Assembly (NCBI GenBank): GCA_942159475.1
Contig: OW804095.1
Location: forward strand, 89,789,740 to 89,853,739
DNA from: Sthenelais limicola
Taxonomy: Eukaryota > Annelida > Polychaeta > Phyllodocida > Sigalionidae
Direction: 5' to 3'
DNA: 64,000 bases
In this document: in pieces, positions 936-52,508 of the stretch
How the letters are laid out: each line of letters begins with the position of its first letter
How positions within the stretch are numbered: the stretch's first letter is position 1
Position numbers and translations under genes: made by a program
Notes under the pieces: model-generated
Databases searched by the model: none
Told to the model about the DNA's origin: nothing
The model's input: only the letters and a program-made list of their open reading frames with translations

Positions 936-954
936 ATTGTCGAGTACGGCTAAA

Positions 955-24757: not shown

Positions 24758-26347
24758 ATGGAAGATGCTCCGAATTCGCCTGAGTTGGCATTGTTCGACA
24801 GACTAAAGAAATTGGTGGAACGATTGGCGGCCATCCCTCGAGCGATTGTGACGAGAAGACAATTGAGAGAAAATCGTGGTAAAATATTGAATCAACAGCC
24901 TAAACAACTTGTTTTCGAGGAACATCCCTATGAAGTGCCTCAGGCTATGGAAGATGAGCAGGAAAGACAAGGTGAAATAAATCCACAAGCAATTCCGCTA
25001 CCCCCTCCTCCAGCACGTATACAGATAGACGAGACAGAACAAGTTCAACAGGAAGGAGTAGTGAATAATCATTGGTTAGACGATATTATGAACAGAAATG
25101 TGCAGCAACTAGCTGGGAATAATATTGGTCAGGAACGGCTGGTGGAAGATAATCCAGTCGACGAGGAGAGAGCCGGCGAACAAGCGCTAGAGGAACATTT
25201 AGCGCCCAACCCCGACGACGCGGTGAATGATCCAGCGATAGATCACCAAGGTCAGGCTATCGACGATGAACAGCAGCCACAGGTTGGTTTAAATGTTGAG
25301 AACAATGTCATTGAAAACGTGGTAAATGAAGGGGAAGTTCTGGAGGAAAATGTCCAGAATCAACGTGAAAGAGTGTTAACACCCCAAGCTGTCGCAGAAC
25401 AGCCTCCTGTGGTTAATCAGGGACCTTATTATCCATTTGAAACACCAGGATTGAATGATAAATTTGTGACACCTTTACAGACTCCAGCAAAACCAGTGGT
25501 TAATCAGTTCATTCCTTTACAAGTACAGAGGCCTATTCTCAGAAACTTTCCCCAGGCCCCAGTGTTCAATGTGAATGGACCCAGACCTCCTGTGTTTACA
25601 AATACCACCCCTCAACACGTAAATCAACAGCCGCCTCAGTTGCCTAGGCAACCGCCTCAGTCGCCTAGACGAGACCCCTATCAACACCAGTGGGATATGA
25701 ATAATCAACAAGGACAGATAGGAGAAATGCAGGCAAATCAGTACGGTTTGCCTCCCCAGAATCACCAATATTTTCCTCAAAATGGTGAGAATATTGGAGG
25801 AAATAACCAATATTTTGCTCCTGTGCAAAATGCGATTCCACAGCAGCAGGCCCAGAATATCATTAATCACCAGCAGCAAAATGATATTCAGCAACAGCCA
25901 CAGAACATTATTCAGCAACAGCCTCGACAGAATAATGTTCCTCTTAAGCAACAAGTTGGTTACCAAGCTCCCCAGCAACCAACTGTTAACCAGCAGAGCC
26001 CTAGAGGATATCAAAATCAGGGGAGAGGCAGACAGACCCCTCCTTGTCAACAACAGCGACCAAGGCAACAAAATTACCAACCTAGGCCGCAACAACAGAG
26101 GCAACAATACAGACCTAATGTGCAGCAACAACAGCAACAGCAAGGGTTTGTACAACTGCCGAATGTGCAACAAGGAATGTATAGGCCCCCACCCCCTGCC
26201 TATAACCAACCCTTGTACGATTTGGTAGGTGAAATCAAGCAGATGAGGCTTGATCAAACAGCCTTTTCGGATGTGTCACTACGACGACAGGCAGAAGCGA
26301 CAGGATCCACCACTTCTGCGACAAGCAAAAGTATGAATGATAGCTGA
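24758..26347 (+). CDS. Gln/Pro/Asn-rich gag-like ORF of an LTR element
   Basis: 529 residues from the ATG at 24758. The first 60 residues are helical and charged (LFDRLKKLVERLAAIPRAIV). Residues 60-200 are acidic. The remainder is a low-complexity Gln/Pro/Asn domain (QQPPQLPRQPPQ, NVQQQQQQQGF) of the kind that favours RNA binding and self-association. There is no zinc knuckle and no protease or RT. I do not recognise the family. Its position just behind an LTR and primer-site-like sequence suggests Gag. The final part (from about 26283) overlaps, in another frame, the first recognisable residues of LINE F, so its true C-terminus may have been replaced when that LINE inserted. Confidence 0.45.
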   Translation: MEDAPNSPELALFDRLKKLVERLAAIPRAIVTRRQLRENRGKILNQQPKQLVFEEHPYEVPQAMEDEQERQGEINPQAIPLPPPPARIQIDETEQVQQEGVVNNHWLDDIMNRNVQQLAGNNIGQERLVEDNPVDEERAGEQALEEHLAPNPDDAVNDPAIDHQGQAIDDEQQPQVGLNVENNVIENVVNEGEVLEENVQNQRERVLTPQAVAEQPPVVNQGPYYPFETPGLNDKFVTPLQTPAKPVVNQFIPLQVQRPILRNFPQAPVFNVNGPRPPVFTNTTPQHVNQQPPQLPRQPPQSPRRDPYQHQWDMNNQQGQIGEMQANQYGLPPQNHQYFPQNGENIGGNNQYFAPVQNAIPQQQAQNIINHQQQNDIQQQPQNIIQQQPRQNNVPLKQQVGYQAPQQPTVNQQSPRGYQNQGRGRQTPPCQQQRPRQQNYQPRPQQQRQQYRPNVQQQQQQQGFVQLPNVQQGMYRPPPPAYNQPLYDLVGEIKQMRLDQTAFSDVSLRRQAEATGSTTSATSKSMNDS

Positions 26348-26681
26348 GGCTGCAGAAAAACTACATGATAATACTAAAACCGTAAAAGGAAACATCTACA
26401 TAAACAGAACACTCTTCAGGCATAATCAGCTGGGCAGAGCACCTACAGAGTTGCTCCTCTCCCAGTTAACCAGGCAGCAAAACGACGAAGCTTCAGTATT
26501 CTTCACTGCTCAAAACCCCCTATCAAACCATTATAGAGCCCCCTTCATACTTGACCAACACAGATTAGAAACAGTGGAGCAATACCTCCTATACCATAGG
26601 GCGGAGATTGGTGACAACCCAGCAAAGCCAACACTAGCTCTAAAAACCCAGGACCCCGCCCAATGTAAGAAATACATATAA
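26337..26681 (+). pseudogene. LINE F ORF1 fragment: first half of a NADAR domain
   Basis: The fragment matches the ORF1 protein of LINE G (50574-51794). Upstream in the same frame, before a TGA at 26334-26336, are residues like the end of the G RRM-like region (RQDPPLLRQAKV). The NADAR part shows the conserved start (FFTAQNPLSNHYRAPF) and the glutamate motif (TVEQYLLYHRAE). The DP...CKK motif III follows, and it is cut at CKKY by element D. NADAR proteins (E. coli YbiA family) act on ADP-ribose-type substrates. Here the domain is fused to a retrotransposon RNA-binding protein. Confidence 0.75.
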
Positions 26682-26868
26682 TCGACGGGTCGATGCCCAT
26701 ATTTGGGACCAAGGGCGGTGACTTCCCTTCTGGGCCACGCCCATATTTATTCAACCAATCACAGGCGACTCAGTATACATAAGTCATTCTTGTTCACTCA
26801 CTTTCAATGGCAGCATCACCACACACAGATGTGCAGGAACAGACATTTTTTTGCTATAGTTGGATTCA

Positions 26869-27690
26869 GAATGTCTGATCCTAAGTATTGTTCCAAGTGC
26901 GAGGGGGAGCATGTTCCTCCGGTTGGGAAGAAATGCAAGAAAGGTGCTGAAGAAGAAAATCCAAGCTTGAATGAGCAGATGGTATCGTTGGAAGGTATGA
27001 TGAAGAACATCCTTGCGAACCTTGAATCCAAAACACTGACCAAACCAGGCGTCGACAAGTGGATCTTCGTTGGGGAGTGATGAAGATATCTCTTTTCTTC
27101 ACAAGAGCAGAGGTCGTAGCCCTAGGAATGATGGATCCATATATAATGTGGGCGTGGCAAGCAGCTCTAGGACTCATGGGTGTGATCGCTCCCGTTCGAG
27201 GTCCAGATGTCTTCCTTTCAACCAGAAGAAAGACCTGGAGAAAGGGGAAAGTATTGAATCTATTGAACAGTTGCTATTGCTAAATCTAGAACTTGTAGAC
27301 AAGTTGGTAACTGATGTCAGACCTTTAAAAGAAATCCAGGGAGTCGTCAGCCACTGTATTACTATTTGCCAGAGAGCAGGGTCACACGTCTATTCTTTGA
27401 AAGCTAGTTTGGCCTATGATAACGCTGTTAGGGCCCGTGCTAATAAGACTGGTCTAGCCGCATTCCAGGAAGTTAAACAACAGGAAGTTCTGAGATGTTA
27501 CTCCTTTCAGAACTCCCGTAAAGTCCCCTCTAAGTCTACTAAATCTACCAAGAGGGAAAGGATCTGCTTCAAGTTTAATAACCAGGGTGGATGTACTGTC
27601 AAAAATTGTGACTACCCACACAAGTGCTCATCATGCAGTGCTGCGGATCATGGAGCGAGAGCATGCACAAGTGTGAAGCATTCAAAATAG
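26869..27690 (+). pseudogene. Ngaro-like Gag with one frameshift (element D)
   Basis: The N-terminal part (ATG 26869) has a zinc-knuckle-like cluster YCSKCEGEHVPPVGKKC and a coiled segment. A frameshift near 27050-27070 moves to the frame carrying the Arg/Ser-rich linker and helical core (LLLLNLELVDKLV, SHCITICQRAG). The C-terminal Cys/His-rich finger (CFKFNNQGGCTVKNCDYPHK) closes the frame. The second part aligns along its length with the gag of element C (14466-15095), which lacks the N-terminal cluster. It probably packages element RNA. Confidence 0.7.
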
Positions 27691-28096
27691 GATGAGGCTG
27701 TTCGAGATAAAGTTCAGGTTAATGATATTGAATCTAGTTGTATAAATAGTGCTTTTATACCATGTAATGATGTTATTGTTGACCATGCGGAGAGTGTATT
27801 GTGTGTTGTTGTGTGATGATTCCATTTGTGACTATGATCTGGAAGTGGTTACCAAGGTTCCTGCTGACCCCTCCTTGACATTGAGCGAGACTGTCATGGC
27901 CGATGAGTTGGAACAATGCCAAGTGTCTTTGAGTTCTGCAATTCCGTGGATTCCGTGGATTATATCTCTCAACGGACCTCAAACAATATTCAAACCCTGA
28001 ACAAGGTATTTATGGTGATATTAGATTGAGTATTACTGAATTTGGTAGTTCTGGCGCCGATGTTTGTAATGATGTATTACTATTTAGAAATCCAGT

Positions 28097-28846
28097 TTCG
28101 TGCGAGGCCGTATTGTTGATGTTTTTGCTGCTTGTGCTTGTGGATGTTGTTCTTGTGTACATGTATTAGGTGGCACTCATGCTCAATTAAAACCATGTAG
28201 GTTTGCTTACCCTTTATTTACTCCACCAAAAGCCAGTATTGATGTGTATATTGATGTGTTTCACAGAGTTTTGGACGGTTTTGATGTGGTAGATTCAGAT
28301 ATTGAACCATATGACTGTTCTAACTACAGCCGTAGCAAAACCGGACAGGGGTATCCGTCCAATAACTGACTGTAGTAGAACTGTTGGCAGGTCAGTGAAC
28401 AAACATTGTAGTAGTTTAGTCAATGAATTCTCCTACAAATCTATTGATGATGCAGTTTGGATAGTATCAAATGACTCTTACATGGCAGTGGTGGACATAA
28501 AATTGGCGTACAGAGCTGTGCCGATCAACCCTGATCACCGTCGCTTCTGTGGTTTTAGGTGGGGTACTGAAGGTAAAGAAACCTTATATGTCGACAATAA
28601 ACTATGCTTTGGACTCAAGACAGGCCCCTGTATTTTTAATCACATTTCTAACTTCTTCATCACATGTATTGTAGAACTGTTCAAATTTCCTGTGGTAAAT
28701 TTTCTAGACGACATTTTTGTCAACACTTCAGACATGACTCTTTCTCTGCCTCGAGAAAGAAAAGAAGCTCATTAAACTTGTGGATCTTACCAATAGTGCG
28801 AAATACATGACCAAGAAGGACTTGGAAAGGTTTTGCGGATACATTT
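28097..28846 (+). pseudogene. Ngaro-like reverse transcriptase, broken (element D)
   Basis: The first piece (28097-28330) carries FAACACGCCSCVHVLGGTHA and ends at YDCSNY. About 50 residues are then missing, and a shifted frame (28302-28775) supplies KPDRGIRPITDCSRT, AVVDIKLAYRAVPI and CFGLKTGPCIFNH. The catalytic box reads NFLDDIF, so the usual tyrosine before DD is replaced by leucine. A further shift leads to KKDLERFCGYIS. RNase H and recombinase are absent. Confidence 0.7.
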
Positions 28847-28850
28847 CGCA

Positions 28851-29158
28851 AAATGGCCCAAATTCACCAAAATCAAAAGCAATGGATTCAACAAAGGGAA
28901 GAGATTGTAAAGAGAGCTCTGAGAGCAAAAGTCAAGGCCCCTGACGAGGCAAAGGATTACCTTCTAATGAAGGGGGAAAGAAAAATCAGAGAAGCCTCCC
29001 CATCAAACAAATACTGGTGAATTTGAAAAGGTCTAAAAATCCAGAAGACTTGGATCACATACAGTGGCCCTCTCAAGGAAACCTCCTTGGGAGATGCTGG
29101 ATGGCTGTCAGAGCCACCCTAGTTAGGCAAGAGAAAAGTAGGCCTGAAATAGAAGAAT
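28851..29158 (+). pseudogene. LINE F ORF1 fragment: second half of the NADAR domain
   Basis: This continues the domain cut at 26681: tryptophan in KQWIQQREEI, then the ALRAK helix, the GERKIREAS segment and the WGxG box. Both glycine codons of that box have become TGA (28999-29012). Downstream, the same frame reads NLLGRCWMAVRATL, the terminal NADAR helix, and ends at 29158. This copy keeps about 19 residues that LINE G has lost after REE. Confidence 0.7.
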
Positions 29159-37887: not shown

Positions 37888-38427
37888 TTACCAATTAATC
37901 ACTCTGGAACCGTCATTACTGACTGGAACTCCTAATAGAACCAAAGTTGGATTAATGCATGTAACTCTGTCTATCTTTTCTATTATTTCTTCATCATTTT
38001 CTTTTCTGTTAAAGAACCCTATATCATAGATCCACTTAAACAGTTTCTGCCAAAGTAGTCTGGCTTTCGAACACTCTACCAAAAAGTGGCATACATTGTC
38101 CACTCTTTCAGCACAATAATTACATTGTTTTGTTCTTTTTATTGATATATTCTTCAGGTGTTCATTGCACAGTATGACCTTATGTAGGATTTTATATTGA
38201 AACGACTGTAACCTAGTTTCATCAGAGATTTGGTAGACTCTAGGAAATGTGTCCTTCCAGTCTAATTCTTCAAATTCTGCATCCGATAGGTTTAAGATTT
38301 CTTGCCATTTATCAAATTTCACTATATTTAGCTTTTTTTTCTTGATTAAGGCATGGTGAACAACCTTAGAGGAGCAGTATCTATTCCACACTAGGAATAT
38401 CTCCTTGTAAAAGTTGTTAATATCCAC
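37888..38427 (-). pseudogene. LINE G ORF2 C-terminal domain with zinc finger
   Basis: An open piece of 179 residues. WKDTFPRVYQISDETRLQSF precedes CNYCAERVDNVCHFLVECSK, a zf-RVT type C-x2-C...H-x4-C motif common at the end of L1-type ORF2. It probably helps template binding. The 3' UTR follows to 37474. Confidence 0.8.
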
Positions 38428-39450
38428 TTAGGTTGGTACCCATTTTTTTCTTTAGACATTCTTCTAAAACTGAAAACCAGGTAGTATATCTACCTAATAG
38501 GATTCTTTGTACCCATTTTATCCTGTTAACCTCATATATGTCTTCAATTAATCTAAGGTTCATTCCACCCAATATCGTTGATTTTCTTCCTCAGAGATTT
38601 GTCAATTGAAATACATGACATTACATATTGGATAATGGAAGACAAGAACACGTTCGCTACAACGACTCTGCCTTTTAGGGAAAGGAAACGGTTCCTCCAG
38701 TCATGTATTACACCCTTCATTTTGATAATTGCTAGCTCACCATTAATTTTGGACATGAGTTTCTCGTTTCTGGGTGAGAGTAAGGTTACTCCCAGTACAT
38801 TTAGTCTACTACTTCATTTAATTTCTTGCATGGTATCATTCGTCAAAGTAATATTTCCGATTTTACATCCATTGGATTTTCCGGGATTTAATGACAGTTC
38901 CGAGGCTGTTTCAAAGGATTTGAATATTTGGAAGAGTGAAGCTTCATCTTTTGCCACCAAAGTGGTGTCGTCCGCGAATTGTATAATCTTTTCTTGATGG
39001 TCTAAAACATTTATTCCTCTAATTTCCTCACAATCTCTGATGTTTTGGGCTAGTTTTTCAACCACAATAGTGAAGAGAATTGATGAAACAGGATCTCCCT
39101 GTTTCATCCCTCTCTTCACCGCAAACCAGTCAGTTGCAGAAAACTGCTTTAGATCTGCGCAATAAAGTTTTAATATAATCTACAAACTCTTGACTTATGT
39201 TATGATCTAAGAGTGTTTTTTCCATAAACTCCCAATTGACAGAGTCGTACGCCTTAGAAAAATCTAGGGACACAACTATGCCATTCTGATTCTGCAACTC
39301 TAACATTGAAATTATATCGTCTAACTTTCTCACAGCGGTGCCAATATATCTGCCCTTTACAAATCTGTATTGGTTTTCATTAATTATACGGGGCAAAAAA
39401 CTGATACAACCCCTGACAATTTCTGAAACCAAGTCTCTAACAGAAAGCAT
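38428..39450 (-). pseudogene. LINE G ORF2 reverse transcriptase (partial)
   Basis: RT motifs: FVKGRYIGTAVRKLDDI, VVSLDFSKAYDSVNWEFMEK, MKQGDPVSSILF, IIQFADDTTLV (catalytic), ETASELSLNPGKS and IHDWRNRFLSLKG. Breaks are seen near 39120 (frameshift after SKAVFCN), near 38810 and between 38553 and 38430. The N-terminal RT part is missing because the nested LINE starts at about 39449. Confidence 0.8.
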
Positions 39451-41113
39451 GTTCGAAAAACCAAAACCAAATCAAAATTGTAAAAGAAATGAAGTCGAGA
39501 ACGATAGAGACGTTCCATTACTCAGGTTCCCGGAGGTAACACAAAACACCGTTTACAAAATTATTCGGAAAACAAAACCTTCGAAATCCTCTGGTATCCC
39601 CCTATTACCAACAACAGTTCTGAAACCAATATTTATGACCTTATCGTATCAATTCACTCACTTATGTAACGTCTCCCTGAGAACGTCCAAAGTTCCACAG
39701 GACTTTAAAGAGGCAATAGTAGACCCCATACACAAATCGGGGCCAGTATCTGACCCATCAAACTCCCGCCCTATCAGCCTGGTAAAACTACCAGCAAAAA
39801 TCTTAGAAAGGGTAGTACATGGAGTCATTTACCCCCATCTGGAAGAAAACAATCTTTTCTATGATTTCCAGTATGGTTTTAGAGCGGCCCACTCCCTGGA
39901 ACATGCACACCAAAGATTGTTTGAGTTTATCTATGGGAAGAAATGCGATAATGAACACGTCTAGATTGTATAATATTATCTTGATTTCAAGAAAGCCTTC
40001 GATTCCGTTAATCATGAGATATTACTCGAAAAACTAAAATGATTTCGGCTATCATATCCAATAATAAAATGGATAGAGCATTACCTTTCGGACCGCTATC
40101 AACAGGTTAGAACGAATGGGAAATATTCAGAGATGCAAGAGGTCAAGTGCGGTGTTCCCCAGGGAACAGTACTCATCCTCATCTTTTTACTGTATGTGAA
40201 TGATCTCCATCGAGTCATAGGCAAATCGCAAATCCAACTATTTGCCGACGATACCGTATTATATCACTCCCACCCCCTTGATAACAACCTCAAGGAAGAA
40301 TTGCAGAATGACCTAAATATGGTTGGAATGTGGTGCAAGGCAAATAAGATCTCAATAAACACCAAAAAGAGCCAAGTAATGGACATTGTTCTGAAAACAA
40401 ACAACAAAAAACCTACCTCAAACCGTATTGAGTTGAACCTGAATTCTGCAAGTCTGGACTATGCTGACGAGTACTGTTATCTTGGCCTACTTATAGACCA
40501 AACACTCACTTTCAATAAGCATGTCCAAGGGAAAATAAATCAAATTACTAAAAGACTACGAGCCACAGCCAAAATTAGGAAATCACTGCCCACAAACAAT
40601 ACCATACTTGTCTACACAACGATGGTACGCCCAGTGATAGACTTCTGTGATGTATTCTATGCTCCAGCTCAGAAAAAGTTAACAGACAAGCTTCAGACTA
40701 GTCAAAACTCATTCCTTAGAATAGCATATGGTTTAGGAAAAAGAGATAGTGTTAGAGAACAACACAAAACAAACAACATCCCATTCCTAGATGAAAGGAG
40801 AGAATCCCACCTCCCAGGCCTAGCAATCAGAATGAGCTGTAGCGACGAGTATATAGATCAGAGAGGTCTTAACCTAAGAAACTTGGCAAATGGCAAAACA
40901 TTGAAACCCCCTAAGACAAAAATTGAGAGAATACGGAGATCCTTCACAGTACAAGCCCCGACCCTCTATAAAAAATTACCAGCAAAAGGGAGAAACTGCT
41001 CCTCGATAGACGAATTTAAAGCATTCTTAGAAGCAGAATATTATTCCTATTCTGGAACCCAGAGAGACGGGGCCCAAGAACCGCCGCCACGACCTCAATT
41101 GCATCAACAATAG
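39449..41113 (+). pseudogene. H1 reverse transcriptase, same frame with three stops
   Basis: The frame aligns to the H2 RT throughout: KPSKSSGIPLLPTTVLKP, SRPISLVKLPAKILERVVHG, YLDFKKAFDSVNHEILL, CGVPQGTVLI, LFADDTVLYHS. Stops interrupt at 39962 (after NEHV), again a few codons later, and near 40040. There is no frameshift. The catalytic FADD box is intact. Confidence 0.85.
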
Positions 41114-41256
41114 AGGCTATCCCCATTTGAAACTCATAACGACGACTATCACCCTTTCTCTTTCCCTCGCCAACGCATCATTTAACACCTAAGAACAACT
41201 TGAAGATAGTTGATGTAACAAGATAGGACAAATAAGATGGTCCAACTGCCCATGGA

Positions 41257-41535
41257 CTACATACGCAGTGGTGAGTGTTCGTTAGAATGCCACCAACCCG
41301 TGTGTAGACCAGTGGCAAAATAGGCAGTGGACAAGAGTGTTCTACAGAATGCAAACCGTCTACTGCTTAAGTTGTGTTACTGTACTGCAATTGATTTTAC
41401 TATTGTGATTCAACATATATACAGAGCCGAAGGATGGGAAAACGAACCTCAATTGAGACTTCCCTGACCCATCCATGGATACAAGTAAGCCAAGGTACGT
41501 GAGGTGTTCGTTAGAATGCAACCACCTACTGAGGG
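41257..41535 (+). ncRNA. H1 3' UTR hairpins (three copies of the H-hairpin)
   Basis: Copy 1: core 41275-41290 (GTGTTCGTTAGAATGC) within an outer 9-bp stem 41257-41265/41299-41307. Copy 2: core 41337-41352 (GTGTTCTACAGAATGC, loop UACA) within an 8-bp stem 41325-41332/41358-41365. Copy 3: core 41504-41519 with a weaker outer stem. The core folds as GUGUUC/GAAUGC around a 4-nt loop. Confidence 0.75.
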
Positions 41536-41936
41536 TTTCTAGAAAATAAGACAATGAACAACAAATGTAATGCAACAATTTTATTATATAAAACCATAGG
41601 GAAATGTCCCTACAATAATTTACCTAATTCTAATGTCACTAGATATGCATACTCTACATGGAAACTTACTATAATTAATTAACTAATGTACAAGGGACCC
41701 CTTGGAAGAGCTTAGAATAGTGCGCGCGAGAACGCTATGACGCACATAAGAACGCGCTGTTAAAACCATGTCTGTACACTAGGATACAGGACCTTCAATA
41801 GAACACGGAATACGCAAAAACCTTTATAAATACTCCCAGAACAAGAATATAGGCAACATCTGATACAAAAGGACTGATCCGATGCTATAAGGTAACCTCA
41901 AACATTTCAAATCACCCGCCAGCAAACAATACCAAG

Positions 41937-43640
41937 ATGGCGGCGGCGTCGCTAATGTCAACAAAGCATGAGCATGAACGATGGGTCAACAAAACTAACA
42001 ATCCCCATACGGGCCTGAGACGGTCGAATTCAGAACCCAATCTCAATCAACCCGACCCACACATGTCCCTAGACATAAATTTGATAATACAAGAGGTGAA
42101 ACATCAAGTTCTAACAGAGATCGGCCTCCACTATGGTGTTGGAAATCATGCGGTCCCAGTAAAGCTAAGCCAAGTAGGTAACCAAGGGGCGGCCGAAAAT
42201 AACCAGCTGATCGTGGACCTACAAGCTAGACTAGGATATACCCAACAACAGGTGGATAACATGGTCAGGCTCCAATCAGAAAGAGAGAACAACATCCAAA
42301 GTGAGCTAACCAGTTTCAGAACATTCATGACTTCAAATACAGACAGAGAAGCTAATGAAAGTAAAATAACAAGTAGATTGGCGTCTCTAGAAAGTTTTCA
42401 ATCGAAAACTGAAAATACTGGAAACTCCAGCGATGCTGACACAAGCCAATTCCCATACCTAAGCCGTGCCAAACAAGCAAACACAAAAGGGAAGAAAATA
42501 AATGGAAAAGTAAACGCAAAAATACAAAAAGCAGGATCCAAACCTATATCGAGAAATACGTCTTCAAACGCCAACCAAAATCCAGGCCCCAATGGAAATA
42601 CAAATTCAAATAGGGCTAACTCAGAAATAAAAGGTACCTACCTCTTCATAGAGGGAATCCAAGAACCCTGGCTCGATCACAATGGAAAACTACCCAATAA
42701 TATCTCCAAACAAGAGCACATCAAGGATGCACACTGCGTTGAGGATCCGAGATTAAAAATCCTGGAAATTCTTCAGTTAGCAAATCCATCAATAGATGAA
42801 GAAGATGTGAAATCTGTCTATAGGGTAGGCAAGGTACATATCCATTCCACCCGTGCGATGTTTGTAGAGCTCCGACATACGGATAACAAGATAGCTGTAA
42901 TTCGTGGTTGGAAGACAGTGAGAACAAAGGAAAAATTCCAATCGATCTGGCTAAATAGATATCCTCTAACAGGCGGCCGCAAAAACAAATTTCTATTAAG
43001 AAACTGCTACACGCTACTGAAGCACTCAAGCCCTGAAGCGAAACTAGTCGTCAACCATATAGCTATAGGCGGAGAGACTTTCGCCGTGAAAGATCTGGTG
43101 CAACTCCCAGCCGGAAGTACCCCAACGGATGCACAACAAATCATGGTGGGCGATAATGGACTAGGATTCCAGGGAGAGTCACACTTCTGCTCGAATTTCT
43201 ATCCTGCAACCTTCAAATACAAAGGACGAGAATTTAATTCAGTCGAGCAAGGCTTCCAAATCATAAAAGCCGAAGCAGCAGGTCTGACGAAACTTGTGGA
43301 TAAAATCAAGGCCGCGACCTCGCCGAGTGCCGTAAAATGGCTAGGGAAATCGGTAAACACAAAAAAGATCGATAACTGGAGAAACCAGGAAGAATCCCTT
43401 TTGGAGGAGCTTGCTAGACAAAAGTTCGAACAAAATGATGAAATAAGGGGAAAACTATTGGATATCTCGGCCGACAACTTATATGAAATCACGCCATCCA
43501 GGAAATGGGGAGCCGGTTTGTGGCTGCCCCCCACTTCCTACAACAACAACAAGCGAAACACGCTGAAGGTGGAAGACTGTACCGGCGAGAACAAATTTGG
43601 ATTAATTCTAACAAAACTAAAGAAGACACTGTCAAGATAA
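41937..43640 (+). CDS. H2 ORF1: coiled coil-RRM-like protein with C-terminal NADAR domain
   Basis: 567 residues; ATG in good context (AAGATGG). Residues about 85-165 form a heptad-rich coiled coil (QQQVDNMVRLQSERENNIQS). A basic Asn/Lys/Ser linker runs to about 230. Residues about 232-395 look like the RRM/C-terminal-domain region of LINE ORF1 proteins (GTYLFIEGIQEPW, VKSVYRVGKV, AVIRGWKTVRTKEKF). From about 405 to the end is a NADAR domain: FCSNFYPATF, EFNSVEQGFQIIKA (the conserved Glu), SPSAVKWLGKSV, LARQKFEQNDEIRGKLL, WGAG, ENKFGLIL. The Asp after WG in YbiA (WGD) is Ala here. The protein should coat LINE RNA. The role of the NADAR part is unknown but it is intact. It is followed 62 bp later by the esterase ORF. 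Confidence 0.85.
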   Translation: MAAASLMSTKHEHERWVNKTNNPHTGLRRSNSEPNLNQPDPHMSLDINLIIQEVKHQVLTEIGLHYGVGNHAVPVKLSQVGNQGAAENNQLIVDLQARLGYTQQQVDNMVRLQSERENNIQSELTSFRTFMTSNTDREANESKITSRLASLESFQSKTENTGNSSDADTSQFPYLSRAKQANTKGKKINGKVNAKIQKAGSKPISRNTSSNANQNPGPNGNTNSNRANSEIKGTYLFIEGIQEPWLDHNGKLPNNISKQEHIKDAHCVEDPRLKILEILQLANPSIDEEDVKSVYRVGKVHIHSTRAMFVELRHTDNKIAVIRGWKTVRTKEKFQSIWLNRYPLTGGRKNKFLLRNCYTLLKHSSPEAKLVVNHIAIGGETFAVKDLVQLPAGSTPTDAQQIMVGDNGLGFQGESHFCSNFYPATFKYKGREFNSVEQGFQIIKAEAAGLTKLVDKIKAATSPSAVKWLGKSVNTKKIDNWRNQEESLLEELARQKFEQNDEIRGKLLDISADNLYEITPSRKWGAGLWLPPTSYNNNKRNTLKVEDCTGENKFGLILTKLKKTLSR

Positions 43641-43702
43641 AGGTTTAGTTACCAGCAACACAAGCTTACTCACTTACTCCTACCTCATCCAAACTGTAAA
43701 CC

Positions 43703-44422
43703 ATGGCGCAGCGGCTAGATGCACTTGTTTTAGCCGACTCAAGGGGAGCTGGCATGCAACAAATACTGCATAGCAACTACTCAGCACTGAGAACGAAAGT
43801 TGTAGTAGTACGGGGAGGTCAAATTGCCGATCTAACCCATGTTGCAGAACCAATTGTACGCCTACGACGACCGAGAATAATCTACTTCACAGCGGGAATC
43901 TGCAATATTACGAAGAGAGACCGATCTGACCTAGGAAGGCAAATTAAACTAAGGTACAACTCTATTGCTACTTTCGAAGAAACCATCACGGAAATACTAT
44001 CCCATGCAGCAAACTCCCTCCGAAACGCAGTAGTGGTAGCACATGAACGTCCAAAAGTGGGATTCGCATCTATACCAGGTGTGAATATTAACCAATATAA
44101 CGAACATCTAGCAGCGGGCTGGGAAGGCCAAGTTATCTTCAAAAGCACCCCCTACACCACCCAAGGGATGCTAAACGACATTGTTATTTCCTATAACAAT
44201 GTTGTAGGATACCTTAATGCGCTAGAAGATCTACCCACCCCCAGAATAGGGGAAATAGTCCACAAAAGGAAATCGACCAGGAAAGCTAAACTCACTGGAA
44301 AAACCAAGATGATGCATTCCTACTCCAAGCTAGCACCGGACGGCTGCCACTACACCCAAGAAATGCTACTAGCCGCAACGACAAAACTGGTGGAATGTAC
44401 CAACAGAGCACTGACAAACTAA
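43703..44422 (+). CDS. H2 ORF2: SGNH (GDSL-type) esterase
   Basis: 239 residues; ATG in strong context (ACCATGG). SGNH blocks are visible: serine in LVLADSRGAG (residues about 9-18), glycine in VRGGQIADL, asparagine in TAGICNIT, and histidine in APDGCHYT near residue 215. CR1-type LINEs are known to carry an esterase domain, normally within ORF1. Here it is a separate frame between ORF1 and the endonuclease-RT. The role of the esterase in retrotransposition is not established; a lipid- or membrane-related function has been proposed. The frame is intact. Four hairpins lie between its stop and the next ORF. Confidence 0.8.
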   Translation: MAQRLDALVLADSRGAGMQQILHSNYSALRTKVVVVRGGQIADLTHVAEPIVRLRRPRIIYFTAGICNITKRDRSDLGRQIKLRYNSIATFEETITEILSHAANSLRNAVVVAHERPKVGFASIPGVNINQYNEHLAAGWEGQVIFKSTPYTTQGMLNDIVISYNNVVGYLNALEDLPTPRIGEIVHKRKSTRKAKLTGKTKMMHSYSKLAPDGCHYTQEMLLAATTKLVECTNRALTN

Positions 44423-44449
44423 AGGACAACAGAAAACCAACACACCTAA

Positions 44450-44912
44450 CCTGTGGTCCTGACGGATGGTGTTCGTAAGAATGCACCTGACGGCCCACAG
44501 GGAAGGTGAAAGGTAACAGTTTGCTTCTACCTACACTAAGTCACCCCCTCTTCCCCTAATACACTGACATTTGCAGATTAAAACAGAAGACAGACAGGAC
44601 ACAGCCTAATCCGAAACAAGCCACAGGGAAAACCCCCTGGGGAACTGTGTTAGTCATAATGCAACCCCAGAGTAAGAATACCCAGAAAACACAGGAGGAA
44701 GTGCCAATGTTAATGTTAATGCCAAAATTGGAAGAATCGGAAATCAAAAAATCTAAAAATCTCCAGGGAGATAGATGGTGATTAGAATAAGGCTTACTGG
44801 GGAACTGTGTTAGTTATAATGCACCCCCTCCCCTAAAATATATAGTATATAAAATCTATATAAATCACAAGACAGGCTTGCCGGGGAACTGTGTTAGTTA
44901 TAATGCACCCCC
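44450..44912 (+). ncRNA. H2 inter-ORF hairpins (four copies of the H-hairpin)
   Basis: Cores at 44469-44484 (GTGTTCGTAAGAATGC, outer stem 44450-44456/44495-44501), 44648-44663 (GTGTTAGTCATAATGC, outer CTGGGG/CCCCAG 44638-44643/44666-44671), 44807-44822 and 44891-44906 (both GTGTTAGTTATAATGC, with G4/C4 outer stems). In the last three, the closing C-G pair of the core is A-U. This is a double change that keeps the stem. The next ORF begins about 500 nt downstream of the last copy. Confidence 0.78.
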
Positions 44913-45409
44913 TAAAATATATATAAAAAACCCAAGCCTAAAGGTGAAAATGTGAAAAAATGCGAATAGTGTGTGTCAGTGCGCTAAGTCTATCTCTGCA
45001 TATATATATATGTAAACACATGCATGGATGGATATATATGGGATACCTATAAAAGCCAAGCAGTTAGACTCTGTGATGAAAGAAGAAAAGAAAAGAAAGG
45101 AAGAAAAGGAAGAAAAGAAAAAAGAAAAGTGAAAATGTAAATCAGTAAAACAATGTAAAATTAAAAACCAGAACAATCATGCAGGAAATAACTGACGAAA
45201 ATGACAGTATAGTGCTAAACTGGTTAACAAGTCAATCATAGAATAACAATAACAAAATAAGCGTATCAAGTAAAAATTAATCAAAGAAGGTCTAATCTGA
45301 AACTTACTACAACTGTGTATATAAGTATATATAGTGAAAACACTAGATAAAAGAGAAGAAGAGAAAGGTAAAATTAAAACTAATTGTAGAAAACACTACC
45401 CAGATAAAG
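44913..45409. other. H2 spacer before the endonuclease-RT ORF
   Basis: A-rich on the plus strand (45080-45130 is nearly pure purine), with a TATATATATATG run at 45001. No ORF. The long A-rich leader before the ORF3 ATG could matter for internal initiation. Confidence 0.5.
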
Positions 45410-48328
45410 ATGTCTGGTAGTGTAGAACTTGAAGCAAAAGAACTTGGGGAGAAAAAGGGAGTTACCCTAATCTCATGGAACATTTGTAGTGTCCTCCCCA
45501 AGATAAACTATGTCAGAGACATGCTAGAAGTGGCAAAACCCGATATTCTAGCGTTACAAGAGACATGGCTGGGTGAAAATGTCACAGACAGCCAAATAAA
45601 TATACCACTTTACCAACACTACAGGGTGGATAGGTTAACAAAGCGTAAAGGAGGAGGTTTACTCCTCTTCCTGAAAGACGGGTACGAGGTAGATGACCAA
45701 TCGATGGCACATTTGAATACCCAAAACAAAGATCTCGAATTACAAATAATTACATGTGCAAAACAGAAGGCAAAGCACCTTACAATTGTAAACGCATACC
45801 GCCCACCGAGCGGCAGCCTTCCAGCAGCGCAAGAAACGCTGAAACACTTGTTAGGCAAGCTAAATCCCAAAACAGAAATCTATGTCATGGGCGATTTTAA
45901 TCATGAAACAGACCAAGATAACTGTAAAATCACCCCTATCTTTCGACAATGCGGACTCTCCCCTAAAATCAAAATGCCAACAAGAATTACACGCAAATCG
46001 GCGAAAACAATAGATCAAATCTATACAAGCGCAAAATATATAAATGTAACGGGGGTAATAAATGACAACTCGAGTGATCATCTACCAATCTTTGTAGTAA
46101 AGAAAAAGGGAAGAAACTCTTATGAACGCACACCCTTGACGACGAGGTCATGGAAAAACTTAGATACAAACAACCTCTGCAGAAACATCGTAAATGAAGA
46201 TTGGACAGCACTCTACCACAGCAGCGACGTAGATCGCTGCTGGGAAGAGATGTCAACCAAAATTGAGAATTCCCTAAATGAAATGTGCCCGGTTAGACAT
46301 ATCGCTAACTCAAGAGTTAAACCACCCTGGTATGTTGATGATTTACGGCGTCTGGCGAAAGAGAGAGACCGAGCGTTTAAGAAAGCCAGGAAATCAAATA
46401 AAATATCACATTGGTCTACGGCCAAAATCATCAGAAATAAGATGAATTCTAAACTCCTAAAGGCCAAAAATGAGTACATATCCAAATGGCTAGCAGAACA
46501 TTCGAAAGATCCAGGTAAATTTTGGGACATCCTAAAACCACTGATAACTCCTAACAAACTGAAAACAATAGAGAAAATAAAACTCAAAAACAGTAGTGGA
46601 AATTTTGTAGATAAAGAGTCAATCCCAGAAGAATTCAATCAGTTCTTCACTAACATAGGACCCAAACTAGCCGATCGGATAGAACCATTAACAGGCAATG
46701 AAAATAATGATCTGCTCTCCCATTTGGTAAAAGGTAACCGAACGGCTGAGAGAGGTACCCGAGAGATGGTGAAACTCCAATTCCCAGAAATAACACACCA
46801 AGCAGTCTTCAATATAATTAGAAAGACGCAAACATCAAAATCCTCAGGGATGCCATTACTCCCCACAAAAGTATTGAAACCAATACTACTTGCTATATCA
46901 CACCAGTTTACCCACCTCTGTAATACCTCGACCAAAACCTCAAAGGTTCCAAAAGAGTTTAAAGAGGCAACTATTACGCCAATATTTAAATCTGGAGCAA
47001 GGTCCGACCCCTCGAACTATAGACCGATTAGCCTGGTGAAACTGCCAGCAAAAATCCTAGAAAGGGTCATCCATGGTGTCATATACCCACACCTGGAAGA
47101 GAATGGCTTGATATACGAATTTCAATACGGCTTTAGACAGGGACATTCCCTGGAACAAGCGCATAGAAGACTGTTCGATTACGTATATGGGAATAAAAGT
47201 AAAAACAACCCAGTATCACTCGTATATTTGGACTTTAAAAAGGCGTTTGATACCGTCGATCACAACATCCTTCTGGCCAAATTGTCAAAATTCCACCTAT
47301 CGAAGTCAATAATAGACTGGGTTGGCCACTATCTCTCGGGGAGATATCAGCAGGTGAGGGCAAACGGGGAAACTTCGGGGAGGGAAAGGGTCACATGCGG
47401 GGTCCCCCAGGGAACGGTGCTGGGCCCCTTACTCTTCCTCCTGTATGTCAATGACCTGCATGAGGCAGTCCGCGAATCGCAGGTGCAGCTATTCGCGGAT
47501 GATACCGTCCTCTATCACTCAAAATCAGACGAAGATGAAATGAAACGTGAACTTCAACAAGATCTGAACCAAATTGGAAAATGGTGTAGAAAAAACAAAA
47601 TTTCGATAAACGTAACAAAGAGCAAGGTTATGGACATATGTTTAAAAACCTCAAAAAATAAAACCACACCTGACCCACTGAACCTCAATTCGGCTGACTT
47701 GGAACAAGTGCCCGAGTATTGCTATCTTGGCCTAAAAATAGACCAAGCTCTGACATTCAACAGCCATGTTCAGGCAAAAATTGATCAAATCGCAAAAAGG
47801 TTGAAGGCAACGGCAAAAATTCGAAAAGCACTAACTATAAAGAATACCATATTGGTTTACACCACCATGGTCAGACCAGTCATAGATTTCTGCGATACAT
47901 TCTATGCGCCTGCCCAAAAGAAATATCTAGAAAAACTACAGACTACCCAAAACTCCTTTCTTAGGATAGCATACAACCTAAATAAAAGGAATAGTGTAAA
48001 AGAATATCATACCCAGCTTAAAATCCCTTTCCTAGAAGAAAGAAGAGAATCACACCTCTTACAGGTAGGCTACGAAATGAGCTGTAACGCAGAATGTCTA
48101 GATGACAGGAAAGTAAACTTAAGAAGCTTGGCCAAAGGTCGACTATTGAAAATTCCAAAGGTCAAGACCGAGAGAATAAGAAGGTCATTCTACATACAGG
48201 CACCCACCCTATTCAATCAACTACCACCTAAAGGGCGAAATTGCCCTACAATTACAGAATTCAAAGCATATCTAGAACAGGAGTATTTTTCCTACTCAAT
48301 AGGCACAGGGGCCCAGCCACCAAACTGA
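45410..48328 (+). CDS. H2 ORF3: APE-type endonuclease-reverse transcriptase
   Basis: 972 residues. The endonuclease (1-220) keeps its active-site motifs: SWNICS, QETWLG, NAYRPPSG, GDFNHE, IDQIYTS, SDHLPIFV. The RT has a fingers region (SKSSGMPLLPTKVLKP, NYRPISLVKLPAKILERVIH), then VYLDFKKAFDTVDH, CGVPQGTVLGPLLFLLYVNDL, catalytic LFADDTVLYH and a thumb region. It nicks target DNA and primes reverse transcription there. The CGVPQGTVLGPLLF/LFADD pattern and the short repeat tail point to the CR1/L2 group. No inactivating change was seen. No RNase H and no zinc-finger tail are present. Codons just upstream of the FADD box are GC-richer than elsewhere in the ORF. Confidence 0.9.
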   Translation: MSGSVELEAKELGEKKGVTLISWNICSVLPKINYVRDMLEVAKPDILALQETWLGENVTDSQINIPLYQHYRVDRLTKRKGGGLLLFLKDGYEVDDQSMAHLNTQNKDLELQIITCAKQKAKHLTIVNAYRPPSGSLPAAQETLKHLLGKLNPKTEIYVMGDFNHETDQDNCKITPIFRQCGLSPKIKMPTRITRKSAKTIDQIYTSAKYINVTGVINDNSSDHLPIFVVKKKGRNSYERTPLTTRSWKNLDTNNLCRNIVNEDWTALYHSSDVDRCWEEMSTKIENSLNEMCPVRHIANSRVKPPWYVDDLRRLAKERDRAFKKARKSNKISHWSTAKIIRNKMNSKLLKAKNEYISKWLAEHSKDPGKFWDILKPLITPNKLKTIEKIKLKNSSGNFVDKESIPEEFNQFFTNIGPKLADRIEPLTGNENNDLLSHLVKGNRTAERGTREMVKLQFPEITHQAVFNIIRKTQTSKSSGMPLLPTKVLKPILLAISHQFTHLCNTSTKTSKVPKEFKEATITPIFKSGARSDPSNYRPISLVKLPAKILERVIHGVIYPHLEENGLIYEFQYGFRQGHSLEQAHRRLFDYVYGNKSKNNPVSLVYLDFKKAFDTVDHNILLAKLSKFHLSKSIIDWVGHYLSGRYQQVRANGETSGRERVTCGVPQGTVLGPLLFLLYVNDLHEAVRESQVQLFADDTVLYHSKSDEDEMKRELQQDLNQIGKWCRKNKISINVTKSKVMDICLKTSKNKTTPDPLNLNSADLEQVPEYCYLGLKIDQALTFNSHVQAKIDQIAKRLKATAKIRKALTIKNTILVYTTMVRPVIDFCDTFYAPAQKKYLEKLQTTQNSFLRIAYNLNKRNSVKEYHTQLKIPFLEERRESHLLQVGYEMSCNAECLDDRKVNLRSLAKGRLLKIPKVKTERIRRSFYIQAPTLFNQLPPKGRNCPTITEFKAYLEQEYFSYSIGTGAQPPN

Positions 48329-48388
48329 AACCAAAAACCAAAAGAGTCAATGAAGATCTCTCGCTCTCTCTCTTTCACTCCATACAAT

Positions 48389-48734
48389 CTGCAGGATGGT
48401 ACGATCAGTGTTCGTCAGAATGCTACCGACCCGTCCTGCAGAGCGACCCCCAGGGCTCACGACAGTCAGAGTGTTCGTCAGAATGCAATACTCGAGTGAT
48501 ATCTGGGGAAGCCCGTAAAGATAGTGAATGTATCATAAAGGTCATATGTACTAGACCAACACTGTAACTAGTCAAATCAATGGACGACTCTAGTAGTGTT
48601 CGTAAGAATGCAAACGACTCCTCCATTGACGTGACTTTGGTCACTACTCATTGTAATAGACCAAAACTGCATCTAGTCAAATCAACGGACGACTCTATTA
48701 GTGTTCGTAAGAATGCAAACGACTCCTCCATTGA
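48389..48734 (+). ncRNA. H2 3' UTR hairpins (four copies of the H-hairpin)
   Basis: Cores at 48408-48423 (loop GUCA; inner GGTA/TACC 48398-48401/48424-48427 and outer 8-bp stem 48389-48396/48434-48441), 48471-48486 (outer CCCCAG/CTGGGG 48448-48453/48503-48508), 48596-48611 (outer TCAATGGA/TCCATTGA 48577-48584/48622-48629 plus AGTCA/TGACT), and 48701-48716. The last two sit in a recent tandem duplication of about 105 bp. Confidence 0.8.
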
Positions 48735-49116
48735 TGTGACTTTGGTCACTACCTGAACAATGTTCAGCATGTGTATATAATTATTCCAGAACAAATAAAG
48801 GAGGAACAGAAATAAATAAATAACACAAAACAAAACTATAATAATGAAGGGAAGATATCCCATATAAGGCTGTACTATCTAATGAAAAAGGCCGGAATAT
48901 AACCTGATTACTTATTTATGAAATGAAAATGTCGACACCCTATGAGGTAATGTAACTTATGAATATATATAGTGTAGATAATTTAACGATAACGTAACAG
49001 GCCTCTCTGGAAGATCTATGGCTAGCATAGATGCGAGTTCCTACCTCCAGTCATATTATTATTGTATACTTTGAATTTATGTAACAGATGATCTGGAAAT
49101 AAACAACATCAATCAA
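48735..49116 (+). other. H2 3' UTR end and tail
   Basis: Runs to CTGGAAATAAAC and an ATCAATCAATCAA tail. The terminal block (CTCTGGAAGATCTATGGCTA... to ...CTGGAAATAAAC) is repeated, in diverged form, by the H1 remnant that follows. Confidence 0.65.
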
Positions 49117-49235
49117 TCAAAAGGCTACCATAGAAAGGGAGACCCATTTCCAGAATTATTGTTACTATTATTCTTATCTGTACTTGTTATGTCGAATCTG
49201 GAAATAAACACTATACAATACAATACAACAAAGAT
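49117..49235 (+). mobile_element. CR1-like LINE H1, right part (3' end)
   Basis: GGCTACCATAG...CCAGAATTATTGTTACT...AATCTGGAAATAAAC aligns to the end of the H2 3' UTR and continues the H1 3' UTR broken at 41727. The tail CACTATACAATACAATACAAC is a short A-rich repeat, as in CR1/L2-type LINEs. LINE G coding sequence begins immediately after, on the opposite strand. Confidence 0.7.
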
Positions 49236-49239
49236 AACC

Positions 49240-50529
49240 ATTGTCTTCTTCGTCTAGTCTTACTGTGTTTTCGATCACTTGGTCTAGACCTATATAAGTT
49301 TAGTAAAAGTTCTCCCCTTCTTTCAGTATTTGTTGCCTGTTGGTTACCATAACTTCATAAGTTTTAATTTGTGTGATCACTTTTTTCAAGGAATTGTATT
49401 TCTCAAGAGAACAGAAGTATTTTGTCGGTTTTTCACTGTCTACTGCCCATTTGGCCTTCGACCTGAGTAACGCTCCCTCCGCTTTTTTTTTAGCTCTAGT
49501 TCTGTTAGCTCATTAATAACACAATATTTCTCACTAGTACTTCTTTGGATAGCCTTCTCTTATTATCTAACAATTCTAGCCTTTCGGTTAGCACACTTTT
49601 TCTACAATTTCTGGCTCTTGCTCCATTAATACTAATTTCTATCGCAAGTTCCCTTACTCTCAATTTAAAAAACTCCCAGATGGTTTTATCTGTTAATTTC
49701 AAATTGGATACCTCTTTGACAATATGTTCAACACCATTTACAAAAGCATCTTCAGACAATAGTTGAAAATTAAATTTCCAGTATCCTCTACCTCTAGAAG
49801 GGAGGTCTAGTGAAACAGACAGCAATATTTCTTTATGGTCAGTTAACACCTTGGTATAAACTTTATGGTTTTTTACCCTAGAAACGATATTCTCTGAAAT
49901 AAAGATATAGTCCAATCTCGTCTCTTGAGTGGTCTTGGACCAAGTCGTCTGAGGGAGTTGTCCGTTTTTATTCTCTAGATTAGCTATGATGTCACATAAG
50001 TCCAGGGAGGATACAAAGTCTCTCAGGGCAGAACTAGATTTTGATTCTGGTTTGTAAGTTAAGTCTGTATTAAAGTCTGTGAGATGACCAGATTGTCGAA
50101 GATCTTGTCACACATTTGTTCTTTAACCTTCTTTAACACTGCTGTTTGTTCTTTTACACGGTCCGCTGTGGGGGCATATATATTTACCACACATGTTTTA
50201 ACACCATTAATATTTAGTATAATATACACCCATCTACCATTGGGGTCTGCCTCCGACTCTAGTAGGTGATCTTGTAAGTCTTTGGAGATCATAATTAATA
50301 CCCCTTTGGAAGCTGAACTTCCATGACTATAAACAATTTTTCTTTTCCACTGCAGGTTCCAAATTATTTCCTGCTCCCAAACTGAGTGTGTTTCTTGAAG
50401 GGAAATAATGGTATTATTCTTATTATAATAGCTAGAAAAAATGCTTTTTCTCTTTTTATGATCATTGAGACCATTCACGTTATTTGATGAAAAGGTAATC
50501 ACTGAATTTTCTCCTATGTTTGGCTCCAT
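49240..50529 (-). pseudogene. LINE G ORF2 N-terminus: endonuclease
   Basis: From the ATG at 50529: NGLNDHKKRKSIFSSY, ISLQETHSVWEQE and VVNIYAPTADRV match the L1-type APE endonuclease. A frameshift near 50075 falls at the GDFN motif (the other frame reads TDFNTDL). LDYIFISENIVSRVKNHK and VLTDHKEILLSV give the C-terminal motifs. RSKAKWAVDSEKPTKYFCSL and VMVTNRQQILKEGENFY (about 49450-49290) continue towards the RT before the nested H1 tail cuts in. It overlaps nothing; ORF1 ends 45 bp upstream. Confidence 0.78.
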
Positions 50530-50573
50530 TATTAACAGGATGGAACTGACCTGGCTTCTTCCTTTAAGAGACT

Positions 50574-52136
50574 TTAGAAACCTTCCATCTCTTCTATTTC
50601 CTCTCCATTTTCTTGTAGTAAATCATCCTGATGTTCCTGATCTTCCACTTTTTCCTGGTATGGTGTCGCTGTCTTTTGGGGTGCCTGTTGAACCTTTTGG
50701 TCTTCCACTGGGTTTTTGTGGACTACCTTGGGTTGCCCTCTCTTTGGAGATTCGTCTTGGTTTTTCATCATCTCCTTGTGTCTGAGCTTATCTCTTATGC
50801 TCTGTCTGACGAGCATCCAACACTTTCCAAGGAAGTTGCTGTTTGGAGGCCATTTGTCGGATTGCAGGAAGTCAGGGTTACCCAAACCCATCCCTATCCC
50901 CCAATCCTTATCTCGGGGTGAGGCTTCGCCTATTAACCTCTCTCCAGTGTTTATAAGCTCTTCACGATGATTGAGCCACTCCCCATTATCTTTTGCTACG
51001 TTCTTCATGAGTTTCTTACATTCAGCTGGGTCGTAGGTAGCTAGGGCTATTGCCGGCTTTTCTGCATCTCTTGCAAATTTTGCCCTGTGGTAAAAGATAT
51101 ACTGTTCCACGTGTTCAAATTGGTGTGCATCTACCATAAATCTTACCCTGTAATGATTCGATAATGGGGAGTTTCCTGTAAAGAAACCAATTGTGTGGCG
51201 GTCCTCTTTCATGGAGATTTGTGAGGGTAGTAGTGCTTTCGGTAGCGCTCCCAATCTGTTGTGTTGATATAAGTCGCCGTCTATGATTACTCCTCCCCTT
51301 ATTGCTACTACATCTTTGTAGCCATTCTGCTCCGCGATTTCCTTCATCATATGTTCCCTCTGATTTCTCAGTCTTATAACCAGTGGGAGGTCCTTCCTGA
51401 CCCTCACCCTGTCTTTCTCAGGAATGTCGCTTTGACTGTCCTCCAGATGTTGCTTGGCTACAAAGACTCGACGTACCTCATCAGTCGACTCAAGTTCAAC
51501 TTTCACCAGGGCGGTTTCCTTCCATCCAACACAAAACATTTTCACAATCTTGAGATCAGTCAGACCCCTCTTTACTTCCAATAGATCATCCATCTTTGCT
51601 CTGAGCATTTGTTTTAGTTCAACCTTGCCAGATCTAACCCCCATGAATAATACATTCTTTTCCAGCTTTTTCATTTCACTGTTCACTATCTCCTTCTCTC
51701 TTTGTTCCTCAGATCGGACCTGATCTGTATCCTTTGATATTTGCATTTTTTCTTCTACCACCTGTAGCTTGTGCTCCGCCATTTCTAATCTCATTCCTAA
51801 GTCCCCAATGTCTTTGTCTCGGGCACTGTTCTCTTAGACGACCTCTTTTTTGCAGACTTTGAGGTCTTCCTCTGCGTTTGTCAATCTATTTTCAGCTCCC
51901 AGTAAGCCGGTTTCTACTTTGTCTACTCTGGTTTTTACTCCTTTTATTTCTTTCATGGCCTCGAAGATTTTAGTCACCGAAATGTCTATTACCTCGATTT
52001 CCTTATGTCTTATATAGAGTCTGTTTTTGGAGCGCCTCGCTCTCTTACTATTGGTCTCATTGAGTCGATCTGAAAATCCCAACGGACTCGATTCAACTTG
52101 GGTTTGGTAATGGCCAACCGCCTTGTGTCCTCGATG
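50574..52136 (-). pseudogene. LINE G ORF1: coiled coil-RRM-like-NADAR protein, one stop
   Basis: A single frame of about 500 residues, interrupted only by a TAA at 51834-51836. A clear ATG at the N-terminus is missing; the frame opens after a stop at 52137. Order: coiled coil (VDKVETGLLGAENRLTNAEE and a second stretch), RRM-like region (NVLFMGVRSGKVELKQML, MFCVGWKETALVKVELE, VRVRKDLPLVIRLRNQRE), then NADAR at about 51200-50780. The NADAR part shows FFTGNSPLSNHYRVRF, EHVEQYIFYHRAKF (conserved Glu), DPAECKKLMKNV, the tryptophan in GEWLNHREEL, DKDWGIG, and NFLGKCWMLVRQSI. About 19 residues after REE are missing compared with LINE F. A Lys/Glu/Gln-rich tail follows. Confidence 0.8.
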
Positions 52137-52321
52137 TTAGAATTTCAACCTCCAGTATATCCTTAGGTAAGGGTAAAGTCACTGTATGCTTCACTTCTAT
52201 TTGTTCTTGACCGTTTTATGAACCTATACTTGCAAGAATATAGCTTCGATCTGCTCCGACCTGTAAAAAAAGGGGTTAAAAACTGGGAGCTCGCTCCCGC
52301 TCGTGGTACTCTCTTAAAACC

Positions 52322-52337
52322 TTAGTCGTCATTTGTT
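52322..52337. repeat. LINE G target-site duplication, 5' side
   Basis: TTAGTCGTCATTTGTT; pairs with 37458-37473 (one C/T difference). The LINE G 5' UTR lies at about 52137-52321. Confidence 0.75.
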
Positions 52338-52397
52338 CGGATGTTACTGTCATTAACAACAAATTATAAATGACTAGCAAAGTACGGTTCCATACCT

Positions 52398-52508
52398 TAC
52401 CGCGCTCATGTATACCGCTCCCCTGCATTGCGCGCTCATGCATACCGCTCCCCTCCCATACCGCTCCCCTCCCATACCGCTCCCATGCATACCGCGCACC
52501 TGCCTACC
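52398..52508 (+). repeat. C-rich tandem repeat
   Basis: Units of about 15 bp (CATACCGCTCCCCTCC and variants, interspersed with GCGCTCATG). At least six imperfect copies. No coding significance. Confidence 0.7.

Follow-up and report, generated by a model that had tools for sequence, protein, structure and literature searches.

LINE ORF1 proteins with a NADAR domain kept by purifying selection in an annelid genome

The window analysed here, a 64-kb stretch of DNA from the annelid Sthenelais limicola, contains three NADAR-bearing LINE ORF1s of two kinds, since an H2 element, a T element and a T-like copy are all found in it. In both the H family (that of H2) and the T family the domain is maintained by purifying selection: its residues are kept, its dN/dS in H is low, and its dN in T is the lowest of the ORF1 parts. 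A first-pass annotation had proposed that the ORF1 protein of H2 carries an intact NADAR, and the profile match, the fold, the active-site residues and purifying selection over copies bear out an apparently intact domain. Its further proposal, that the domain takes off or reads ADP-ribosylation on the RNA or cDNA of the retrotransposon or works against a host defence, is plausible. Judged from sequence, it is likely a working part of the H2-type ORF1 protein, and we infer that it is catalytic. That the domain is kept suggests that an ADP-ribose tag, or its removal, matters for the life cycle of the element.

Among the papers listed on NADAR in retrotransposons a single one was relevant, PMC12477816. 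Its available text describes a NADAR in one Gypsy lineage of Ectocarpus; querying Repbase, its authors also found the domain in the ORF1 proteins of several Pacific oyster Tx1 LINE families, and they suggest a role in RNA processing. The annotation's statement that no established description of NADAR in LINE ORF1 proteins was known must be qualified to this extent: the combination is mentioned there, for Tx1 LINEs only and, in that text, without characterisation. The main text of a study of 448 Jockey-superfamily ORF1s (PMC4120745), as available, contains neither NADAR nor DUF1768, and the available text of PMC9503650, on viral NADARs, has no mention of retrotransposon, retroelement or reverse transcriptase. 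As to activity, NADARs hydrolyse guanine-ADPr, with Glu, Lys and acidic residues weighing in (PMC11543638), and guanosine-ADPr hydrolysis was found in all four NADAR subtypes tested in PMC11125620, which describes as unclear what eukaryotic NADARs do physiologically; the NADAR assays described in the available text of both papers were on DNA.

A NADAR domain in the H2 ORF1 protein

41937..43640, plus strand: ORF1 of the LINE H2, 567 aa
Residues 1-234, helical/linker; 235-400, RRM/CTD-like; 404-567, NADAR: parts of the H2 ORF1 protein
43176..43631, plus strand: NADAR domain of H2 ORF1, residues 414-565

The H2 ORF1 protein matches the profile PF08719 at 72.5 bits (cut-off 35.1), with positions 9-162 of the 163 in the profile covered. 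The domain has the NADAR fold. Residues E437, K444, K467, W481, E517 and W524 occupy characterised ligand or catalytic positions, and three of them, E437, K444 and E517, correspond to E43, K50 and E125 of the Phytophthora NADAR (PMC11543638), the active site of the YbiA subfamily. The domain also matches TIGR02464, named as an N-glycosidase of riboflavin intermediates. The RRM/CTD-like part found no Pfam or PDB profile match and its structural model is of low confidence; the single-sequence fold of the whole ORF1 protein (pLDDT 37) is uninformative.

Copies across the genome

Copies were sought in the window's own assembly (1.13 Gb, 161 contigs). H2 ORF1 has at least 83 matches there (77 scored of 5,235 initial candidates), and in 44 of these, counted manually, a frame without stops runs for at least 500 aa and extends to residue 563 or beyond. 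One of them, L169, lies elsewhere in the genome and is 99% identical to H2 ORF1 over all 567 residues. T ORF1 has at least 189 matches (102 scored of 3,682 initial candidates), and among the matches listed many frames measure 550-714 aa.

Searching the genome with PF08719 itself, with 150 scored of 5,561 initial candidates, gave 150 matches out of 150 over the cut-off, at 103-119 bits, 148 of them stop-free. Since these scores exceed the 56-88 bits of the H and T members scanned, and since by eye no place is common to them and the listed H or T matches, the 150 matches seem to belong mostly to NADAR families other than H and T. Non-LINE members are possible among them, and three frames of only 162 aa may be stand-alone NADARs.

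Conservation and selection

The H alignment comprises 26 ORF1 rows, namely H2 and 25 of 30 loci, near-copies included; left out were L168 (the window itself), L177, L188 and L191 (broken or partial frames) and L181 (no matching 250-aa frame). The positions equivalent to E43, K50, K75, E125 and W133 are kept in all 26 rows, and that of W89 in 25. Two ADPr-contact positions are changed: where the ADPr pyrophosphate is contacted by Asp D130 and Arg R79 in Phytophthora-type NADARs (8bau), a pair that does not define the superfamily, H has S in 26 of 26 rows and K in 25 (G in the remaining one), respectively, and the substrate may therefore differ. Six distant H copies (L198-L203) were compared by eye, of which L199 has K at the E43 position and L198 has R at the K50 position.

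In H, dN/dS was calculated as mean dN over mean dS per bin of NADAR dS, with 141 of 325 pairs binned and pairs left out where NADAR dS was below 0.02, or 3 and above (saturated). It amounts to 0.08-0.15 in the NADAR, 0.085-0.20 in the RRM-like part and 0.25-0.66 in the N-terminal part (from the four of five bins with sufficient codons there), from pairs that share ancestry and are thus non-independent. Because its value is the lower one in two bins and the higher one in three, the NADAR is about as constrained as the RRM-like part.

The T alignment has 30 rows, one of which (L215) has no letters in the NADAR, leaving 29. The equivalents of E43, K75, W89, E125, D130 and W133 are kept in 29 of 29, and at the K50 position 18 rows have K and 11 have R. 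Eight T pairs were computed, with dN of 0.06-0.13 in the NADAR, 0.13-0.24 in the RRM-like part and 0.32-0.55 in the N terminus, the NADAR being lowest in every pair; dN is given here without a ratio because NADAR dS is saturated in all eight.

H2, T and further NADAR-bearing elements

45410..48328, plus strand: H2 ORF2, 972 aa, APE-type endonuclease and reverse transcriptase
39404..41519, plus strand: H1, a 5'-truncated relative of H2
50574..51794, minus strand: T ORF1, of the second NADAR LINE, 406 aa from ATG
49303..50529, minus strand: endonuclease part of T ORF2 with the sequence after it, in several open pieces
37888..39471, minus strand: T ORF2 reverse transcriptase (RT) pieces and zf-RVT C terminus
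26298..29121, plus strand: T-like ORF1 copy, the third with a NADAR, sharing 42% identity with T residues 133-263

H2 is a LINE, a non-LTR retrotransposon. Its ORF2 matches PF03372, PF14529 and PF00078, as do those of three relatives, and the family has dispersed copies, some of them 5'-truncated, as seen in the genome-wide ORF1 matches and in H1. The H1 stretch 39404-41083 is 64% identical to H2 ORF2 residues 424-971, and H1 and H2 both lie inside the minus-strand LINE T, between its endonuclease and RT pieces.

By its sequence H2 appears to be a lineage apart from T, and a non-Tx1 one, because the H-type ORF2s scanned have no zf-RVT match (H2, L201, L202 and L198, the L198 frame stopping early) and because only the T RT piece, of the two compared, matches L1 ORF2p. 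In PDB that piece matched five sequences, four named LINE-1 ORF2 and a fifth, 8c8j, named RNA-directed DNA polymerase, which we take to be L1 ORF2p too; the roughly corresponding piece of H2 had no PDB match. Counting against a separate lineage, the best matches of the whole H2 ORF2 are L1 ORF2p as well. The C terminus of H2 ORF2 has what we presume to be a CR1/L2/Jockey-like look.

The NADAR of T ORF1 scores 55.7 bits against PF08719, and the copy in the window misses 19 domain residues that other aligned T copies have. The third copy is interrupted, at about 26680-28850, by an insertion of DIRS-like look. A further ORF1-like protein of 648 aa, at 116-2059 (plus strand) of locus L234, has a NADAR after its RRM/CTD-like part. 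Because PMC12477816 reports NADAR in Tx1 ORF1s, the T elements are probably of the kind already mentioned there for oyster Tx1 LINEs.

In a free tree of NADARs H and T form separate clades, at 100/100 each, with H beside three short YbiA-like rows; this is a tree in which long branches meet, as a warning, and H and T are the sole eukaryotic NADARs included. The AU test gave no rejection of H and T as one clade, with p 0.469 for the window T alone and p 0.395 for six T copies. An hhalign comparison between H and T over their RRM/CTD-like parts (probability 9.8, P 0.0033) is suggestive at most. By eye, a segment with LPxG/LPKE..P precedes the NADAR in H, T and L234, and in these three ORF1 types, the ones read, the domain directly follows the RRM/CTD-like part. 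BLASTP with the ORF1 regions of H2 and T that precede the NADAR found no match. A 5.8-billion protein set, queried at E 0.001 with the NADAR domain, with T ORF1 and with ORF1 residues 235-567, gave none either, and viral contig scans with H2 ORF1, T ORF1 and H2 ORF2 found no relative.

Comparison with known NADAR systems

The Tx1 LINEs of Crassostrea gigas, as presented in PMC12477816, share with H2 the presence of a NADAR in a LINE ORF1, and T elements resemble them; compared by description only, H2 differs in having no zf-RVT match and a separate SGNH-like ORF, and it looks non-Tx1. The Ectocarpus Gypsy lineage of the same report is also a retrotransposon with a YbiA-family NADAR, but it is an LTR element with the domain in another protein and place. 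Invertebrate positive-strand RNA viruses, as described in PMC9503650, are likewise RNA-based replicators with a NADAR joined to their own nucleic-acid machinery; unlike H2, they have an RdRp polyprotein and no reverse transcription. The DarT1-NADAR toxin-antitoxin systems and stand-alone YbiA/NADARs, to go by the accounts in PMC11543638 and PMC11125620, have the fold and the main active-site residues in common with H2, whereas no ADP-ribosyltransferase was seen among the ORFs of H2, and H has S for D130 and K for R79.

Possible roles of the domain

As the likeliest role we tentatively propose that the NADAR in ORF1 would hydrolyse ADP-ribose off guanines of the element's RNA or cDNA, since assays of characterised NADARs have measured guanine-ADPr hydrolysis. 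The RNA of a LINE is bound by its ORF1 protein, so a NADAR fused to that protein would sit on the RNA and near nascent cDNA. The RNA-binding part could thus deliver the domain first to the RNA of the element and afterwards to the nascent cDNA, where it would strip guanine ADP-ribose, and the RNA template and single-stranded cDNA would stay readable; the ADP-ribosylation might stem from the host or from cell damage. In this scheme we infer that the domain is catalytically active, that its substrate is guanine-ADPr, that it works on nucleic acid of the element itself, and that a host writer provides the reason for it. In favour of the proposal stand the domain and its fold, the kept residues tied to guanine-ADPr hydrolysis and the purifying selection in both families. 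Counted against it are the family-wide changes in H at the D130 and R79 positions, the exceptions L199 and L198, and several published results. A K-to-R NADAR mutant (K50) hydrolyses in vitro yet failed to rescue cells from DarT1, and Glu-to-Ala at the E43 counterpart has a minor in vitro effect, both as reported in PMC11543638; YbiA and phage NADARs, according to PMC11125620, are active in vitro yet did not protect cells from DarT1.

The same residues can be read otherwise. Were the domain one that recognises and binds ADP-ribose, its targets being RNA, DNA or proteins that carry the modification (at nicked chromatin, for example, PARylated proteins), and were its main task to guide the RNP to its target sites, with catalysis in second place, one would understand why the ligand-binding residues are largely kept while two ADPr contacts are changed throughout H, as altered specificity would give, and why the NADAR belongs to a presumed RNA-binding protein; the catalysis-tied E517 and K444, kept in 26 of 26 H rows, and the E125 and E43 equivalents, kept in 29 of 29 T rows, make this unlikely. 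It also seems rather unlikely that the domain degrades a small ADP-ribose-type molecule (an immune signal, an NAD derivative or a by-product of RNA repair), thereby dampening a host response: the fusion to ORF1 in all three types read suggests action on the RNP, even though the name of TIGR02464 fits such a substrate. Soluble ADPr derivatives have been proposed as NADAR substrates in PMC9503650, for phage NADARs, while for animal RNA viruses that text favours macromolecular ADPr, their NADAR tending to sit in the polymerase polyprotein.

Two accounts would deny the domain a role in the element. LINE ORF1s do exchange domains and entire ORF1s (PMC4120745, in its available text), so that a NADAR could have been captured by chance as a passenger with no role; a dN/dS of about 0.1 in H, the lowest ORF1 dN in T and the many copies with open frames render this very improbable. 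That the NADAR is a host gene, or a misassembled join beside a LINE, and no ORF1 domain at all is a negligible prospect: nothing was found in its favour, and it is ruled out by the dispersed copies, with a single uninterrupted frame, the near-identity of L169 along its full length and a relative of the 239-aa ORF accompanying most loci.

Guanine de-ADP-ribosylation by the ORF1 protein would take on a wider meaning if at least two LINE lineages carried such an enzyme in their RNP protein as a counter-defence, erasing a host or cell mark in cis; the marks could be set on guanines of retroelement RNA or cDNA by enzymes like shellfish CARP-1. We regard this as a speculation, conceivable though on the whole doubtful. 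CARP-1 of a clam and the pierisins of insects are guanine-N2 ADP-ribosylating enzymes in PMC11543638, where their reversal by NADAR is an assumption. If true, nucleic-acid ADP-ribosylation would be an anti-transposon defence of animals, and base ADP-ribosylation of DNA or RNA would be linked to mobile-element control in them. A NADAR kept by selection in a retrotransposon makes the role of eukaryotic NADARs testable, in that ADP-ribosylation would be expected to reach its RNA or cDNA inside the cell, and H and T offer two natural versions that differ at known ligand positions.

An SGNH-like ORF between ORF1 and ORF2

43703..44422, plus strand: SGNH-esterase-like ORF of H2, 239 aa, assigned by the motif DSRG...G...GxCNxT...DGCH only

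In 10 aligned rows of this ORF, DSRG, G38 and GxCN are invariant and DGCH is nearly so; it had no match in Pfam, and none in PDB by sequence or profile. A relative is present in 29 of 30 H loci (the window copy L168 included) and in five of the six distant loci. Esterases are known from LINEs in the SGNH esterase ORF1 proteins of CR1, L2 and RTEX elements, such as ZfL2-1, in the account of PMC3905857. Like H2, these LINEs have an accessory protein with an SGNH-like motif; in H2 the motif-supported ORF is separate and lies 3' of the NADAR ORF1.

A repeated RNA hairpin motif

44469, 44647, 44807 and 44891 (to 44906), plus strand: the hairpin motif GUGUUNGUNANAAUGC four times, in the stretch that separates the SGNH-like ORF from ORF2
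48408, 48471, 48596 and 48701 (to 48716), plus strand: four copies of GUGUUNGUNANAAUGC, in the H2 3' UTR
41275, 41337 and 41504, plus strand: three copies of GUGUUNGUNANAAUGC, in the H1 3' UTR

Allowing up to three mismatches, the 16-nt motif is matched 14 times in the window, where 1.6 matches would be expected. Eleven lie in non-coding parts of H1 and H2, all on the sense strand; the other three are elsewhere and have three mismatches. The motif occurs in 27 of 36 H loci (window L168 included; many loci contain the non-coding DNA only partly), and control DNA had one match in 690,978 bases. Rfam gave no match in 38500-52600.

Each of the 11 sites folds into a 6-bp stem with a four-base loop, with single-site fold z-scores from -7.3 to +0.6. 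The outer arms differ widely in sequence. They pair better with their own partners than with those of other sites (0 of 20,000 permutations), if unevenly, two of the 11 sites falling below their own control and two being a tandem duplication. The pair that closes the loop varies over the family through compensating changes; it is pairable in 78 of 80 distinct occurrences (CG 28, UA 24, AU 23, others 3), where 36.6 would be expected under independence, relatedness not being removed. Pairing holds in 99.5% of cells over 33 distinct rows. A covariation score that rests on one varying pair was reached in none of 500 shuffles; measures counting pairs and pair types were reached by 493 and 118 of 500. 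Our guess is that the hairpin either is bound by the ORF1 protein or serves translation of ORF2.

A 105-bp unit is tandemly duplicated in the H2 3' UTR (48542-48752), with one hairpin motif per unit. Elsewhere in the window, ORFs that resemble recombinases and RTs suggest four DIRS-like elements, at 135-2727 (minus), 8120-12620 (minus), 27070-28775 (plus) and 30383-32827 (minus).
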